Source: Deltaproteobacteria bacterium | GTDB taxonomy: Bacteria; Desulfobacterota_B; Binatia; Binatales; Binataceae | Reading direction: 5' to 3' | Assembly: GCA_021827465.1 (NCBI GenBank) | Contig: JAKAVX010000097.1 | Span: 1 to 8,046 of the forward strand | Length of the DNA stretch: 8,046 bases | Shown: positions 809 through 6,366 of the stretch, piece by piece | How the letters are laid out: each line of letters begins with the position of its first letter | How positions within the stretch are numbered: position 1 is the first letter of the stretch | The notes under the pieces: generated by a model | Told to the model about the DNA's origin: nothing | The model's database searches: none | The model's input: only the letters and a program-made list of their open reading frames with translations | Translations under genes and position numbers: made by a program

Positions 809-1399
809 CTAGGATTTGTAGGGAACCGGATGGGCTTTCTCGTAGACGCCGATCTCGGCGTCGTGAGCCAGCGTCAGCGCGACATCGTCGAGTCCTTCGA
901 GCAGGCATTTCTTCGCGAACGGCTCGATCTCGAACCGCGCCGACCATCCGAACTCGTCCGACACGGTCTGCGCCGCCAAATCGACGGTGAGCGCATAATT
1001 TTCGTGGCGCTTGATCGCCTGGAAAATAGCCTCGACCTCCTCGGGCTTGAGGATAATCGGCAGCATCCCGTTCTTGAGGCAGTTGTTGCGGAAGATATCC
1101 GCGAACGATGGCGCGATCACCGCGCGGAGCCCGAAATCCGCGAGCGCCCATACCGCATGCTCGCGCGAACTGCCGCATCCGAAGTTCGCCCGCGCGACCA
1201 GGATAGCGGCCTTCGTGAAGCGCTCCTGGTCGAGCACGAACCGGCTGTCGGGCTGATTGCGCCAGTCGTAAAAGAGCCCCTTGCCGAGCCCGGTCCGGAC
1301 GACGGCCTTTAAGAACTGCTTGGGAATGATCTGATCGGTATCGACGTTGGGCCGGTCCAGAGGCGCGACCAGTCCGGTGAAATTCTTGAACGCTTGCAT
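809..1399 (-). CDS. leuD: 3-isopropylmalate dehydratase small subunit LeuD
   Basis: LeuD is the small (swivel-domain) subunit of isopropylmalate isomerase, which with LeuC interconverts 2- and 3-isopropylmalate in cytoplasmic leucine synthesis. The 196-aa product has the usual family length (about 200). Its motifs are NVDTDQIIPKQFL at 18-30, NFGCGSSREHA at 72-82 and APSFADIF at 96-103, then GLDDVALTL near 169-177. The frame is open up to an ATG at 1486, but the first 29 residues of that version are low-complexity and do not match the LeuD N-terminus. Homology begins at the ATG at 1399, which a GGGAG precedes by a rather long 13 nt. Its partner leuC lies 3.5 kb upstream, beyond a restriction-modification island, an unusual separation for these two genes. 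With that distance and the intervening genes, leuD probably needs its own promoter. Confidence 0.96.
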   Translation of the reverse strand: MQAFKNFTGLVAPLDRPNVDTDQIIPKQFLKAVVRTGLGKGLFYDWRNQPDSRFVLDQERFTKAAILVARANFGCGSSREHAVWALADFGLRAVIAPSFADIFRNNCLKNGMLPIILKPEEVEAIFQAIKRHENYALTVDLAAQTVSDEFGWSARFEIEPFAKKCLLEGLDDVALTLAHDAEIGVYEKAHPVPYKS

Positions 1400-1682
1400 C
1401 GCTGAATCGATTCTCCCGCGGTTACCCTGCCAGTGGCTCGAGGTTCGAGGTTCGCCCGTATTCGGTTCCTCGGAAACCTGACTCATAATTCCTTATCAGG
1501 AAAGAGGCTGGTCTGTAACGCTTTTGGAAGACGCGAATTGTTAGCATGGCGTCCGGGAGCCCGTCTCGCGCCATGGGCCGGGCGAGGAACGCAAACAGTC
1601 CCTCCCTACGGCCCCGATCGCAAGCGCGGCAGCGAGCGATCTCCGCAGACAATCGTGCGCCGGCAAAGAGGAGCGCTATCGG
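1400..1682. other. Intergenic stretch between secreted-protein gene and leuD
   Basis: I see no convincing gene here; the short open frames on both strands have no recognisable features. The minus strand contains a short dyad (TTCCT-TATC-AGGAA, 1490-1503) and AT-richer sequence around 1480-1530 that could hold a leuD promoter. A possible pair on the minus strand is TTACAG and TAAGGA with 17-bp spacing, ending near 1494. The match is too weak to call as a promoter. A short repetition (GAGGTTCGAGGTTCG) near 1440 accounts for the odd residues in the extended leuD frame. Confidence 0.4.
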
Positions 1683-2192
1683 CTATTTGCAGGGCGTCGG
1701 GCTCATTCTTGCCGATTTGCCGCTACCGCACTGCCACATCGGAGGCGTGTTGAAAACGTGGGTCGCTGCCCACGCCTTGTACTGTGGAGAATTCATCCAC
1801 GCCTCGAGCTTGGGATCGGTCCGCGGCGCAGGCGGCGGTATGTGCATGGGCTCCTCGAAGCGGGGAGGGCCGGCTTTCGTATTGTACTGCGGGGCGTGAG
1901 TGCCGTGGAAAGGCTTTGTCTCCCATGCGGTGCCCGGCGGACAGGGAGGAAACTCGCTGCTGGTCGGATCTCCCGGGCCCGCACATTTATACACAGCCAC
2001 CGGGTACGAGGGCTTATTCGTCCAACCCGGCGGAAGTGGTGGGTAGGCGTCGGGCTCAGGCTTGTTCGGAACAGTCGGCGGCGGAGAAGCTCCGGGCCGA
2101 TCCTGCGCACGCGCGGTGGAAACGGCGGCGAGCGACAATGACAGGAGGCCCGCCGCAAGGATAAAAATCGAGCCGCTGGCTTTTAGGTTCAT
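1683..2192 (-). CDS. Secreted proline-rich four-cysteine protein, function unknown
   Basis: I do not recognise this 169-aa protein. The N-terminus is a clear Sec signal peptide: MNLKAS, a hydrophobic core (about residues 8-22, FILAAGLLSLSLA), then an AxA-type site in STARA before QD, so cleavage is likely after residue 29. The mature chain is rich in Pro and has a stretch of Pro-rich turns (SPPPTVPNKPEPDAYPPLPP). It contains exactly four cysteines, in VYKC, FPPC, MWQC and the C-terminal TPCK, which could form two disulfides outside the cytoplasm. No transmembrane helix follows the signal. The ATG at 2192 has a good Shine-Dalgarno (GGGAG, 8 nt upstream). It sits 32 bp downstream of a broken small membrane-protein ORF in the same direction, suggesting a former two-gene unit. 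It is probably a periplasmic or exported protein. Confidence 0.8.
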   Translation of the reverse strand: MNLKASGSIFILAAGLLSLSLAAVSTARAQDRPGASPPPTVPNKPEPDAYPPLPPGWTNKPSYPVAVYKCAGPGDPTSSEFPPCPPGTAWETKPFHGTHAPQYNTKAGPPRFEEPMHIPPPAPRTDPKLEAWMNSPQYKAWAATHVFNTPPMWQCGSGKSARMSPTPCK

Positions 2193-2224
2193 CTCTATTT
2201 CTCCCGTGCCGAGAGCCCTAACGT

Positions 2225-2432
2225 TTACTGCGTGTCGTTGCTGAACGACAGGTCGTACATCGGCGTGATGTTTGAATCCTGAGTCGTCCCGTCAGGTGTG
2301 TACTCGGTTACCTGCCAAAACAGGTAGCACTCGTTGGTCAACCCCGCCTGTGCCGCCGCGATGAGCAGTGATCCCTATTACGAGCAACAATCCCGCGGGG
2401 ATTAGAAGAAGGAAACCGCGATTGGGGCCAGG
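2225..2432 (-). pseudogene. Remnant of a small membrane or exported protein, frameshifted
   Basis: Two adjacent minus-strand frames join into one protein-like sequence if a single base is removed from the GGG run at 2375-2373. The upstream frame (open from 2432, after a TAG) gives NRGFLLLIPAGLLLVIG, a strong hydrophobic helix. The downstream frame continues with SLLIAAAQAGLTNECYLFW and ends in SNDTQ before TAA at 2225-2227. As written, the upstream frame ends shortly after the break and the downstream frame has no start codon. No ATG or GTG start is visible for the joined version, so its 5' end is probably missing too, perhaps cut by the neighbouring island. The fused product would be a signal peptide or membrane anchor followed by about 40 polar residues. 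I do not recognise the family. A sequencing error at the GGG run is an alternative to a true pseudogene. Confidence 0.5.
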
Positions 2433-2523
2433 CTAACGTCGCGAACCCTGAGCGCGAGTGCTAAAGTCGCCCCAGCCCGAGGATGGCCCAAAATCCACTG
2501 GAAGATTAGCTGCGCGAACCTGA

Positions 2524-2542
2524 GAGCCCAATGCTCGGGCTC
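2524..2542. other. Small inverted repeat downstream of the methyltransferase gene
   Basis: GAGCCC (2524-2529) and GGGCTC (2537-2542) form a perfect 6-bp stem with a 7-nt loop, 15 bp past the methyltransferase stop on the minus strand. No T-tract follows, so it is at best a weak or Rho-assisted transcript end. The rest of the gap (2433-2557) holds no gene that I can support. Confidence 0.3.
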
Positions 2543-2557
2543 CGCTGTCCCGGAAAC

Positions 2558-3547
2558 CTATTTCTCTCGGCGCAGTGGGAGCAGGAATTGGCCTTTCGGA
2601 ACAGGGTCTCTTGATTCGGCGAGTCCCATCTCGGCGATGAGCTTGGGGAAGCGCAGTCGCCCCGTCTCCAAGTAGCGCGGGTCCAGCTCAAAAGCGAGCC
2701 AGCGTCTTCGGAGCCGTTCGCATACCGCTCCGGTTGTGTTCGAACCGGCGAAAATGTCGAGGACCAGATCACCCTCATCCGTCAGGAAGTTGACGAAAAA
2801 TTCCGGAAGCTGTGACGGAAAGCGCGCAGGATGCGGCTTTAATCCGGCTTGCTCGCACAGCTTGAGGTAAGAGCCATTCGAGTCGTTGTTGCCCTGCACG
2901 AGCAGGTTCGAGCAGATTGCTCCGCCCCGGTCACGTCCCCACTTCTCGGTGATGTTGTGGCCCGACGGCCTCTGTTTTGCGCGGTAGCCCTTTTGTATGA
3001 GCCTCTCCATGTCCTTGCTGTACGGAACCAGCACCTTGCGATTGTCCGCTTTTGGACTCGGTGTCTTCGATAGCCACCAGAGGCAGTTGACGGAATCTTT
3101 AACCCTTATGCGGCGCACGGTGACCCATTCCGCTGGCGCTGGCATTTTCCCGGGGTTGTGCCAGTAGAACTCCTGCGCCAGGTAAAACTTCAGGTCCTCG
3201 ACCAGGGCGACCAACAGTTTGAAGTGGTAGAGCGATCTTGTTGGCCGGCCGGGCTCGTATGCTCCGCCGAGATCGATTACAAAACTTCCGTCCTCCGCGA
3301 GGACCCTCTTCACGTCGCGCGCAAATTCCAGGAACCACGGAATGTATTCGGGCTGATCCTTATTCCCGTATTCTTTCTTGAAGTGAAGTGCAAAAGGGGG
3401 CGAGGTCATCACGAGGTTCACGCTCGCTGCCGGTAGCTCCCGCAGCAGTAAGCGAGAATCGCCCACGTAGGCCGCGCCGAGCTTCGTCGCGTAAATCGTC
3501 CTTTGTTTCAAAAGCGGGAGGCCGGAGCTTGGGAAATCGTTCTTCAT
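2558..3547 (-). CDS. M.PvuII-like type II DNA methyltransferase (N4-cytosine, beta class)
   Basis: This enzyme would methylate the recognition site of the adjacent restriction system. The 329-aa protein has the beta-class order: catalytic motif IV first (VMTSPPFAL, 46-54), target-recognition region in the middle, and SAM-binding motif I late (LDIFAGSNTTG, 263-273), with motif II acidic residues in FELDP (286-290). SPPF is typical of N4-cytosine enzymes. From memory of M.PvuII, long stretches agree: SPPFAL and KKEYGN near the start, GSFV with GGAY, FYWHNP, IRVKD with NCLWW, KQRPSGH, HPARFP with LPEFF, and IFAGSNTTG. Length is also close (M.PvuII is about 336). PvuII specificity (CAGCTG) is therefore a reasonable hypothesis, not shown. 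The gene is last in a C-R-M series, 38 bp after the endonuclease stop. It has its own promoter and C-box and no Shine-Dalgarno, with a predicted leader of only about 8 nt. Confidence 0.93.
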   Translation of the reverse strand: MKNDFPSSGLPLLKQRTIYATKLGAAYVGDSRLLLRELPAASVNLVMTSPPFALHFKKEYGNKDQPEYIPWFLEFARDVKRVLAEDGSFVIDLGGAYEPGRPTRSLYHFKLLVALVEDLKFYLAQEFYWHNPGKMPAPAEWVTVRRIRVKDSVNCLWWLSKTPSPKADNRKVLVPYSKDMERLIQKGYRAKQRPSGHNITEKWGRDRGGAICSNLLVQGNNDSNGSYLKLCEQAGLKPHPARFPSQLPEFFVNFLTDEGDLVLDIFAGSNTTGAVCERLRRRWLAFELDPRYLETGRLRFPKLIAEMGLAESRDPVPKGQFLLPLRREK

Positions 3548-3554
3548 CTGGACA

Positions 3555-3567
3555 GACTATGAGTATT
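3555..3567 (-). promoter_or_regulatory. C-protein operator (single C-box) upstream of the methyltransferase
   Basis: Plus-strand GACTATGAGTATT is 12/13 identical to the box at 4402-4414 and 10/13 identical to the one at 4421-4433, upstream of the controller gene. All three have the same orientation. Here the box is single, lies 7 bp from the methyltransferase ATG and covers the predicted -10 hexamer. A bound C dimer would be expected to block this promoter. The sequence match is direct; binding is inferred. Confidence 0.75.
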
Positions 3568-3589
3568 GCTGCAACGAGGTCTTTGTCAA
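3562..3589 (-). promoter_or_regulatory. Predicted methyltransferase promoter
   Basis: On the minus strand a perfect -35 hexamer TTGACA (3589-3584) is separated by 16 bp from AATACT (3567-3562), which matches TATAAT at 4 of 6 positions. The -35 includes the TGA stop codon of the endonuclease gene. Transcription would begin about 8 nt before the ATG at 3547, giving a nearly leaderless mRNA, which fits the absence of a Shine-Dalgarno. The strong -35 suggests activity without an activator. Confidence 0.65.
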
Positions 3590-4143
3590 TGTGCCGCGTC
3601 GTTCACAGCCGCGAGAAAATCGTCGCGCCAGTACCGGCTCTCACCCGTCAGAGGTACCGGCTGCATCACTTTCAACACCTGTGGATCGTCTTCCCGCCGT
3701 GCCAGCTGCCGTGCGGCAATGAAACGAAACTTCCACTCGCCGGTCTGATTGAAAGTGCACACGGCCAGCACGTCAAAGTGATCCGCCAGGTAGCCCCTGG
3801 TCTTACGCCCTTGCCTATCGCGACCTCCGCGGGTCTTTTGAATTTCGACTTTGCATCCCCGCTCCGGTCGAAAGTTCTCGTCGCTCCGCAGGTTTTTGCA
3901 TTCGACGCGAAGGTTGCGACCCTCAGGCATCACGATTTCGAAGTCGGGCTGCCCGTCAGCGTCGTGCCACTGAAGCGAAACGATCCTGCCTTCCGTGCGT
4001 AGTCGTTCGAGATGGCGGTGTAAATAAAGCTCGGCCAGCTTGCCTCTGACATCAACTTGTGCGCGGAACCCATGCTCGATTGCCTCGAGGATGTCCGTTA
4101 CAGGAGCATTAAGTCGTTTCTCTAGCGGATGGGAGAAGGTCAT
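3586..4143 (-). CDS. Predicted PD-(D/E)XK type II restriction endonuclease
   Basis: This 185-aa protein is the likely nuclease partner of the methyltransferase. The catalytic PD-(D/E)XK core is visible: GQPDFEI with Pro66-Asp67, then 13 residues to ECK (Glu81, Lys83), which should bind Mg2+ and cut the phosphodiester. An acidic helix residue in GKLAELYL (Glu39) could complete the site. A basic stretch KVEIQKTRGGRDRQGRKTRG (98-117) may contact DNA, followed by a hydrophobic strand HFDVLAVC (122-129). I see no similarity to R.PvuII, although the methyltransferase is PvuII-like. The ATG at 4143 overlaps the controller stop as ATGA and has a strong GGAGGAGG 7 nt upstream, so translation is probably coupled to the C gene. 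The gene carries one CAGCTG (3703-3708), so self-protection by the methyltransferase would matter if that is the target. Function rests on motif and context. Confidence 0.85.
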   Translation of the reverse strand: MTFSHPLEKRLNAPVTDILEAIEHGFRAQVDVRGKLAELYLHRHLERLRTEGRIVSLQWHDADGQPDFEIVMPEGRNLRVECKNLRSDENFRPERGCKVEIQKTRGGRDRQGRKTRGYLADHFDVLAVCTFNQTGEWKFRFIAARQLARREDDPQVLKVMQPVPLTGESRYWRDDFLAAVNDAAH

Positions 4144-4358
4144 CCGCGATCCTCCTCCATGAGAGCGGCGAGGCTGATCCCGAAGGCGCGGGCGATGTCC
4201 GCTAGGACCGTGAGAGTCGGGTTGCGTTCGCCCCGCTCGATTCCGCCTATGTAGGTTGGGTGTTTTTTAGCTCTGGACGCCAGCTCCTCCTGAGTCCAGC
4301 CGCGGTCGATCCTTAGCGCCCGCACCCTCCGCCCTAGCCGGCTTTGAATAGCCCTCAT
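4140..4358 (-). CDS. Controller (C) protein of the restriction-modification system, XRE-type HTH
   Basis: C proteins are small dimeric regulators that delay endonuclease expression after the system enters a new cell. The 72-aa product is an all-helical HTH_3/XRE domain: RLGRRVRALRIDRGWTQEEL, then LASRAKKHPTYIGGIERGERN, with the recognition helix around HPTYIGGIERGE, then PTLTVLADIARAFGISLAAL. The motif YIGxIERGERN is typical of this family. The ATG at 4358 fits the start of homology. The frame is open to 4454, but that part runs through the operators and is unlikely to be protein. A GTG at 4400, just downstream of the predicted promoter, would give a leaderless 86-aa variant. No good Shine-Dalgarno precedes either start. 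The stop overlaps the endonuclease ATG. Predicted role: activator of its own C-R operon and repressor of the methyltransferase through the C-boxes. Confidence 0.9.
   Translation of the reverse strand: MRAIQSRLGRRVRALRIDRGWTQEELASRAKKHPTYIGGIERGERNPTLTVLADIARAFGISLAALMEEDRG
4151..4158 (-). promoter_or_regulatory. Strong ribosome binding site for the endonuclease gene
   Basis: GGAGGAGG on the minus strand, 7 nt before the ATG at 4143 and inside the 3' end of the controller gene. It fixes the endonuclease start and contrasts with the weak or absent sites before the controller and methyltransferase genes. Confidence 0.8.
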
Positions 4359-4401
4359 TTTGTGCCGAAAGCCTAATGCGCAAAGGTGGGCACGCTCCAC
4401 A

Positions 4402-4433
4402 GACGATGAGTATTCCGAAAGACGATAAGTATC
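4402..4433 (-). promoter_or_regulatory. Tandem C-boxes (OL/OR-like) and weak promoter upstream of the controller gene
   Basis: Two 13-bp copies on the plus strand, GACGATGAGTATT (4402-4414) and GACGATAAGTATC (4421-4433), are identical at 11 positions and spaced 19 bp start to start. The distal copy contains a GATA-AG-TATC dyad. Read on the minus strand, the proximal copy contains the same AATACT -10 candidate as the methyltransferase promoter. The sequence 16 bp upstream (TTCGAT) is a poor -35 and lies partly under the distal box. This is the arrangement expected for autoactivation at the distal site and repression at the proximal site, as in other C-regulated systems. The repeats are seen directly; their role is inferred. 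Confidence 0.75.
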
Positions 4434-4447
4434 GAACCCGCCCCTTC

Positions 4448-4753
4448 GGGACACTCGACGTCTGCCTGGACAACATAGCGCACCGGTAAAATGTCCCGTA
4501 TCGCGTCTGGGAGCAGGCGAGCGGTGGTCGCGTTCGCTAGATCACCAAGAAATGGCTCAGCTACCGCGAACGCGAAATTCTGGGCCCCGGCTTGAGGCTG
4601 GAGGAAGCGCGCGACGTCACCGGTATCGCGCGCCGAATCGCTGCGATTCTCCTGATGGGACCCGAGTTGGACGCGAACTACGAGGCGATAAGGAGCGCAG
4701 CGTTCGCGTGGCCTCGGTCGGAGGGCGCTGGCACACCGGACGTACCGGAGTAG
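4448..4753 (+). pseudogene. Degraded C-terminus of a type ISP restriction-modification enzyme
   Basis: Type ISP enzymes are single-polypeptide translocating restriction-modification proteins of over 1000 residues. A single plus-strand frame here reads GTLDVCLDNIAHR, a TAA (4487-4489), NVPYRVWEQASGG, a TAG (4538-4540), ITKKWLSYREREILGPGL and ARRIAAILLMGPELDANY, ending at TAG 4751-4753. From memory, family members end with the same order: LDVYLN..AYWRNVP..VWEY..GGY.V.KKWLSYRE..LLGR, then ARRIAALLLL.PALDANY. Homology on both sides of two in-frame stops shows a decayed gene tail rather than a chance ORF. The rest of the gene, which should lie to the left, is absent; the controller promoter begins 15 bp away on the opposite strand. 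The match was made by recall, so the family name is good but not proven. Confidence 0.72.
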
Positions 4754-4800
4754 CGGCCGCTGCCATCGCCGGCGCGCGGCCCGCACCATTTCTCTGCGGA

Positions 4801-4915
4801 CCCTCACCTGGCGCTTCGCGCCGTCCTCTCCCGGATCTCGGGCGAGGATCAGGAAAGCGGCGTCGCGGCTGCACCCTCACCCTGGCCCTCTCCCATGTCA
4901 AAAAATGGGAGAGGG
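4801..4915. repeat. Two related CCCTCACC-type intergenic repeat units
   Basis: CCCTCACCTGG (4801-4811) and CCCTCACCCTGG (4874-4885) each begin a unit containing a CCTCTCCC block and a hairpin. The first hairpin is GGCGC-TTC-GCGCC (4810-4822); the second is the long inverted repeat at 4886-4915. Similar CCCTCACCC...CCTCTCCC elements are scattered between genes in many GC-rich bacteria, so this looks like a dispersed noncoding repeat family. Nothing else is seen in 4754-4956. Confidence 0.45.
4886..4915. repeat. Perfect 11-bp inverted repeat downstream of leuC
   Basis: CCCTCTCCCAT (4886-4896) pairs perfectly with ATGGGAGAGGG (4905-4915) around an 8-nt loop. It begins 41 bp past the leuC stop on the minus strand. 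No T-tract follows on that strand, so it may stabilise or end the leuC message by folding alone, or simply be a repeat-family hairpin. Confidence 0.6.
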
Positions 4916-4956
4916 AAACGGCGCGCTCGCCGTGTCAGATGACTGCGGCTACTGGC

Positions 4957-6366
4957 TCAGTTCTTCGGCCAGTCGCGGATGTCGACGAAATGGCCCGCGA
5001 GAGCGGCCGCCGCCGCCATCTGCGGACTCACCAGGTGCGTCCTGCCGCCCTTGCCCTGGCGTCCCTCGAAATTGCGGTTCGACGTGCTGGCGCATCGCTC
5101 GCCCGGCTCCAGGATGTCGGGATTCATGCCGAGGCACATGCTGCATCCCGGCTCGCGCCATTCGAAGCCCGCTTCGCGGAAGATTTTATCGAGGCCGAGT
5201 TTCTCGGCTTCTTCCTTGACCAGTTCCGACCCCGGAACAACCATTGCGTTGACGCTCGCGGCGACTTTCCGGCCGCGCACGATCTCGGCCGCGGCCTTGA
5301 GGTCGCTTATTCGCGAGTTCGTGCATGAGCCGATAAAGACGCGGTCGATTTTGATGTCCTCAATCGGGGCGTTCGGCTCGAGCCCCATGTATTCGAGCGC
5401 GCGTTCGGTCGCGCGGCGCTCGCCGGGGTCGCTCAGCGCGGCGGGGTCGGGAACCTTGCCCGTCACCTCGACGACCATCCCGGGATTGGTGCCCCAGGTG
5501 ACCTGCGGGGCGAAGGAGGCCGCGTCGAAGCGGACGCTGCGGTCGAATTTGGCGCCTTCATCGGTGCGCAGCTCGCGCCATTTTGCGGCGGCCTTGTCGA
5601 AGTCGGCGCCCTTGGGCGCGAAGCGCCGTCCGCGCATGTAATCGATCGTCTTTTCGTCGACGGCGATCATTCCGGCGCGCGCGCCGGCTTCGATCGACAT
5701 GTTGCAGACGGTCATCCGCTCTTCGACCGAGAGCGCTTCGAACGCCGCGCCGCGGTACTCGACGACGCATCCGGTCGCGCCGTCAGTGGTGATACGGCCG
5801 ATAATCCCGAGGATGAGATCCTTGGCCGTGACGCCGGGCTTGAGATGGCCGTCGACCCGAATCTCCATCGTCTTGGGCCGGTTCTGCCAGAGGCACTGCG
5901 TGGCCAGCACGTGCTCGACCTCGCTGGTGCCGATTCCGAAGGCAAGCGCGCCGACCGCGCCGTGGGTCGAGGTGTGGCTGTCGCCGCATACGATCGTCAT
6001 CCCGGGCTGGGTGAGGCCGAGTTCGGGGCCGATCACATGGACGATACCTTGCTCGCGCGAGCCGAGATCGAACAGCGGGACGCCGAACTCGCGGCAATTG
6101 CGCCGCATCATCTCGACCTGAAGGCGCGAATCCGGGTCCTCGATAGGCAGCGAGCGATTCGTGGTCGGGACGTTGTGATCGAGGGTTCCGAAGGTGCGAG
6201 CGGGCACGCGCGCCTTGCGACCGCTGTTGCGCAGCGCCTCGAACGCCTGGGGGGAAGTAACCTCGTGAATCAGATGGAGATCGATATAGAGCAGGGCGGG
6301 CTCGCCGGGCTTCTCGATAACGACGTGATTCTTCCAGATTTTCTCGAAAAGGGTCTCAGCCGCCAT
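4957..6366 (-). CDS. leuC: 3-isopropylmalate dehydratase large subunit LeuC
   Basis: LeuC is the catalytic, 4Fe-4S-containing large subunit of isopropylmalate isomerase of leucine biosynthesis and works as a complex with LeuD in the cytoplasm. The 469-aa product has full family length (E. coli LeuC is 466). Visible signatures include [17 protein letters not shown] (27-43), DHNVPT (63-68), [19 protein letters not shown] (128-146), and the cluster ligands Cys348 in GSCTNSR, Cys408 and Cys411 in PGCSMCLG, then [12 protein letters not shown] near 428-438. No key residue is missing. The ATG at 6366 matches the family N-terminus (TLFEKIW), with a rather distant GAGGTGG upstream. The 3' end faces the restriction-modification island instead of leuD. 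A dyad in its leader (6390-6419) may be regulatory. Confidence 0.97.

Follow-up and report, generated by a model that had tools for sequence, protein, structure and literature searches.

A type II restriction-modification (R-M) cassette in the window (the whole 8,046-nucleotide stretch of DNA analysed here, probably from Binatota) is most readily explained as being timed by its own controller (C) protein, a reading to which we give a probability of about 0.72. The methyltransferase (M) would be made first from a strong promoter of its own, C would later drive expression of the endonuclease (R) while the M promoter is shut, and read-through would then supply M. The parts of this predicted circuit are known from other systems, and their wiring into one operon was found here only in the closest relatives of the cassette. 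The cassette contributes a compact example of C regulation, with a restriction nuclease of a family that lies outside Pfam and PDB sequence descriptions.

Genes of the cassette

Assignment as a C-protein-regulated type II R-M system with the gene order C-R-M, all three genes being co-directional, is supported by the predicted products:

2558..3547, minus strand: M gene, PvuII-like N4-cytosine DNA methyltransferase, 329 aa (PF01555, E 1.4e-41; PDB 1boo, M.PvuII, E 2.9e-106)
3586..4143, minus strand: R gene, predicted PD-(D/E)XK restriction endonuclease, 185 aa (from homologues, conserved residues and a structure model)
4140..4358, minus strand: C gene, controller protein, 72 aa, HTH (PADLOC Control_protein, E 4.5e-14; matches to C.BclI and C.AhdI in the PDB)

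C precedes R in the same direction with a 4-bp overlap, and M follows 38 bp behind R. M.PvuII-type enzymes modify CAGCTG. The start of C was placed at the ATG at 4358 because the homologue alignment begins there, and on the same ground a GTG at 4454, giving a longer C frame that encloses the tandem boxes described below, was rejected. R had no significant match in Pfam or among PDB sequences; its 250 homologues at E <= 0.001 include some that are 70-84% identical, and among 36 sequences D63, D67 and K83 are invariant and E81 nearly so. These conserved residues of catalytic type, together with a structure model (mean pLDDT 87.4) for which nuclease folds stand at the top of the structure-comparison list, predict a PD-(D/E)XK-like nuclease.

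In the C protein, T35, Y36 and R45 are the motif counterparts of T36, Y37 and R46 of C.Esp1396I in an alignment to chain 4fn3, a chain that we regard as C.Esp1396I numbered with an offset of 3. In excerpts of PMC4041747, T36 and R46 of that protein contact bases of GTC and Y37 helps bend the DNA.

Relatives of the cassette (loci with L numbers) were taken from genome contigs (41 loci), with further ones from whole genomes; L042 and L043 were dropped as duplicates of L001 and L006. L048, whose C hit has 35% identity, was counted as a miss in box counts, and both it and L068 (C hit of 42% identity, box found) were left out of the clade analysis of the M box. C and R form one fused frame of ~240-260 aa in L003, L007, L010, L013, L015 and L016, and the C frame of L004 ends early in this reading.

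Three C-boxes in the window

The three 13-bp boxes of the initial annotation, all in the same orientation, two with a 19-bp tandem period and a single one 12/13 identical to the proximal tandem copy, were recovered exactly in place:

3555..3567, minus strand: single C-box AATACTCATAGTC, a predicted operator for the M promoter (top-ranked by the matrix among 16,062 positions)
4402..4414, minus strand: proximal C-box AATACTCATCGTC, predicted activator site (pattern and matrix)
4421..4433, minus strand: distal C-box GATACTTATCGTC, one 19-bp period further upstream (pattern and matrix)

All three match GACNATNAGTATY on the plus strand without mismatch. From base composition, 13-mers this similar (at most one mismatch) are expected 0.0035 times per window, or 2e-5 times per 100 bp of one strand, and when the 200 bp upstream of M were shuffled 400 times, a match as good as the single box arose once. 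A looser count that allowed two mismatches stands out less: it gave 4 matches against 1.24 expected, with at least 4 in 8 of 200 shuffles. The strongest test of the predicted boxes is a matrix trained on the C-upstream boxes of other loci (17 boxes from 13 loci, with the window, L001 and L047 excluded), since its top three among the 16,062 positions are exactly these sites, at 28.0, 25.1 and 17.5 bits, the next site scoring 3.8.

A box lies 48-56 bp upstream of the C start, which is partly extrapolated, in 16 of the 17 loci with a tblastn C hit, L048 having none upstream of C; in 7/17 a second box lies exactly 19 bp further upstream. A later scan of related R-M loci found a strong C-upstream box in 19 of the 20 with a C hit, of which 13 had trained the matrix and match by construction, so that only the remaining seven, which gave it no box, count as a test: six of these (the window, L001, L047, L063, L064 and L068) have a strong box and L048 has none.

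A single C-box on the predicted M promoter

The single box coincides with a predicted promoter of M:

3584..3589, minus strand: predicted -35 TTGACA of the M promoter (L001 and L047 alike), with the R stop codon inside it
3562..3567, minus strand: predicted -10 of the M promoter, AATACT, which the C-box contains (transcription start predicted at ~3555, ATG 3547, near-leaderless; L001 and L047 alike)

With sigma-70-like promoters assumed for this host, TTGACA-16-AATACT at 3589-3562 is the sole promoter called in 2400-4960, where shuffles give 0.3, and bears out the claim that the box covers the -10 of a promoter with a perfect TTGACA. A single C site thus sits at the -10 and start of the predicted M promoter. 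In L001 and L047 the arrangement is TTGACAA, 14 less conserved bases, CAATACTCATAGTCTGTCC, 3 bases (2 in the window) and ATG. The M box falls within a 19-bp run identical in all three of these close loci (window, L001, L047), a strong footprint because four-fold degenerate sites in C, R and M are only 41-59% identical pairwise among them, and in each it outscores the C-promoter boxes. The R stop within the M-promoter TTGACA is TGA, as in L047. RNA folding at the M start did not exceed that of shuffles (z 0.74).

Beyond these three loci an M box was found probably in L008, where it is weaker (17.5 bits with a 25-box matrix, 9.3 bits with a 19-box matrix from which the window trio was excluded) and the second-best site of its locus with both 16-base matrices; we grade it as no more than probable because the score depends on the matrix. 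A match to the endonuclease at 2385-2936 of L008 contains one in-frame TAG; R of that locus may therefore be broken, even though its C box and probable M box are retained. No M box was present within 250 bp upstream of M in 14 of the 18 co-directional loci with a C hit (L063 and L064 judged at a 12-bit threshold), which indicates that repression of M is not essential to the family. R-M gaps of 72 bp (L002) and 50 bp (L018) lack a box, and in the other box-less co-directional loci M starts inside R or at most ~15 bp from the R stop, L048 being ambiguous. In a 45-row M tree the box-bearing window, L001, L047 and L008 form one clade (100/99), which a single origin of the M box would explain most simply.

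Control of the M promoter by a single C site, in the manner of Esp1396I, is well supported at the sequence level. The initial view of a C-regulated R-M system, with C as a DNA-binding switch and one site on the M promoter, agrees with gene order, matrix ranking, footprint and matching contact residues.

The predicted C-R promoter and its tandem operator

The C promoter probably lies downstream of the tandem boxes, its -10 ~25 bases on, and would yield a near-leaderless transcript without use of AATACT:

4394..4399, minus strand: predicted -35 of the C-R promoter, TGGAGC (weak), separated from the proximal box by 2 bp
4370..4375, minus strand: predicted -10 TAGGCT of the C-R promoter (predicted start ~4363, ATG 4358; TAGCCT at the matching place in L001 and L047)

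Across 16 loci (L063 and L064, fetched later, excluded) the best -10 score at 25 +/- 1 bp past the proximal box averaged 3.18 against 2.33 (sd 0.20) in shuffled sequence, with none of 2000 shuffles as high, a count that flatters offset 25 because the offset was picked from a scan of the same loci. The 11 divergent loci gave 3.27 against 2.35 (sd 0.25), again with 0/2000 as high. Offset 25 came first of 28 offsets for the -10 score in the 16 loci; in the first scan of these loci, offsets 0 and 2, which are the bases adjoining the box, scored z 3.9 and 3.5, against 3.5 at 25. From the proximal box downstream to the start codon the distance is 36-43 bp in 15 of the 16 (the exception, L003, has an unclear C start), which would make the C mRNA near-leaderless, as described for this class in excerpts of PMC4824078.

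In the best promoter pairs the -35-like hexamer starts 2 bp after the box in 11/16 loci, 1 bp after it in three and 5 bp after it in two (L004 and L010, whose best-scoring -35/-10 pair lies elsewhere). Such a predicted -35 set against the box is the geometry of an activator touching sigma, not of a repressor on the -10, and a TQE in the C protein resembles the sigma-contact SQE patch described in the excerpted text of PMC4824078. The window hexamers TGGAGC and TAGGCT are weak (each 3/6), as would be expected of a C-dependent promoter, and the C-R promoter hence remains a prediction.

The canonical C operator is 35 bp. Canonical OL/OR pairs leave ~4 bp between sites (PMC4321490, in part), which puts their centres ~15 bp apart; in the excerpted PMC3758141, the 25OL oligonucleotide has 24 letters as printed, from which a period of 14 bp would follow. 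Among the relatives, L063 and L064 have a second site 15 bp downstream of the first, and a GAC half-site, read by eye, is kept at that place in L008, L013, L015, L016 and L029. Because the printed oligonucleotide gives 14 bp, our figure of 15 bp rests on the reported ~4 bp, the 35-bp length of the operator and L063/L064. The GAC half-site occurs in 7 of the 11 loci without the 19-bp tandem versus 0 of the 7 with it (18 C loci, L048 and L068 excluded, kinship ignored). In the window, neither a GAC half-site 4 bp past the proximal box nor a recognisable site over the -35 is present; the predicted operator is of a 19-bp upstream-tandem layout, not a canonical OL/OR pair. One family thus holds two operator layouts, with the second site 15 bp downstream or 19 bp upstream.

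Proposed circuit and alternative readings

In a naive cell the strong M promoter, TTGACA-16-AATACT, would be active at once and produce methyltransferase, while the C-R promoter, with its weak -35 and -10 downstream of the tandem, would leak a small amount of C. C dimers on the proximal (and distal) box, placed against the -35, would then recruit RNA polymerase, setting up positive feedback and delayed synthesis of the endonuclease, and the same protein on the single box, at the -10 and start of the M promoter, would close it. From then on M would be supplied by C-R-M read-through, since C, R and M point the same way, and control of M would pass from its own promoter to the operon. A terminator search of 2400-4960 gave four terminator-like sites, every one of them on the plus strand and none on the minus; with M co-directional behind R, a C-driven transcript could reach M. 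We infer this sequence, with M first, C second and R third while the M promoter is closed, from the layout and from Esp1396I.

The reading proposed initially takes the AATACT of the boxes as the -10 for C, which places the tandem over the core promoter, and has M simply down-regulated. [AG]ATACT does resemble a -10 and is present in most C-upstream boxes, but boxes lying on the core promoter should repress C rather than activate it, four of the 16 box-bearing loci (L008, L013, L015 and L016) lack [AG]ATACT in the box, and a -10-like signal stands ~25 bp further downstream, all of which make this account unlikely. The accompanying description of a poor controller -35 is correct for the promoter then chosen, which is probably not the real one; the tandem as a usual OL/OR pair does not agree with a 19-bp period (~15 bp in the canonical pair) or with the lack of a site over the -35; and simple down-regulation of M left out read-through into a gene 38 bp behind R.

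The circuit that we prefer, in which read-through supplies M, could be modified if C bound at 3555-3567 were also an elongation roadblock that limits M from both promoters. A polymerase coming from the C-R promoter would meet the site 18 bp past the R stop, and a roadblock is documented for C.Kpn2I inside its own gene (PMC6237814, in part), but M behind a blocked operon could drop too low for safety, and we consider the roadblock possible though rather doubtful. Far less credible still is that the M box is a neutral relic, or a by-product of a -10 that resembles a C-box. AATACT contributes to both motifs and most co-directional loci do without the box, yet the identity extends past the -10 and through CATAGTCTGTCC in 3/3 loci of high synonymous divergence, and the M box scores above the C-promoter boxes in each of them.

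We suggest, tentatively and as less probable than not, that in one clade a C-box doubling as a -10 made an internal operon promoter repressible by C, independently of Esp1396I. C would hand M over to the operon, bound C may also gate read-through, and one dimer site would set the M:R ratio of an operon whose genes all run one way.

Distribution and surroundings

In the loci of distant R relatives from acidobacterial records (L023-L028, L030, L032-L034 and L036-L041), M is oriented the opposite way and C gave no hit. In viral contigs scanned with the R alignment 33 stretches matched a pattern and no relative was confirmed; plasmid and phage records gave one match each.

In the window the cassette separates leuC and leuD (809-6366), and in L047/L053 it lies at another site: the 16 kb around the L047 cassette (L053) contained no LeuC or LeuD match at E 1e-4. 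The cassette hence occupies different places among relatives and its regulation travels along. At 4544-4750 (plus strand) an open fragment reading KKWLSYREREILG..., with no Pfam or NCBIfam match, resembles the end of a large type ISP-like R-M enzyme and is perhaps the remnant of an older defence gene at the same spot. A proline-rich, secreted-looking frame of 169 aa at 1683-2192 (minus strand) had no Pfam match.

Comparison with known systems

Our literature search, which covered titles and the beginnings of abstracts, most subscription papers and REBASE being outside it, returned no report of such a Binatota system or of a C-repressed internal M promoter in a C-R-M operon. Control of M appears in one clade of the C-R-M family, so the evolution of a timing switch could be tested by comparing close relatives with and without the M box.

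Control of M by C is described for Esp1396I, EcoRV and Kpn2I (Esp1396I: PMC4041747; Kpn2I: PMC6237814; both in excerpt). PvuII is similar in its methyltransferase, to which M is alike, and in a C-box of the GACT-tat-AGTC kind, and PvuII C-R fusions have a counterpart in the fused C-R genes of relatives of this cassette. In EcoRV and Kpn2I, as far as the excerpted sources describe them, C occupancy or activation likewise goes with lower M promoter activity, but there the M promoter overlaps a divergent C promoter, whereas in this cassette M has a promoter internal to the operon that it shares with C. Csp231I and EcoO109I share dimer sites spaced more widely than the canonical pair; in the excerpted PMC4321490 they are CTAAG-N5-CTTAG with an 18-bp spacer in Csp231I, the figure for EcoO109I being 25 bp, in contrast to the GACT-like 11-bp cores with ~8 bp between them in the window. 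Esp1396I resembles the cassette in its C sites, a tandem ahead of C-R and a single one at the start site of the M promoter (PMC4041747, in part), and in the matching DNA-contact residues. Its C/R and M genes are convergent in that account, whereas C-R-M are co-directional here, and its OL and OR are close-set, whereas the two boxes of the tandem here have a 19-bp period and both lie upstream of the predicted -35; an operator of the Esp1396I type, with OL and OR ~4 bp apart and OR over the -35, was not found in the window. The likeness to Esp1396I is thus said to lie in the predicted working of C at M, not in the type of C operator.
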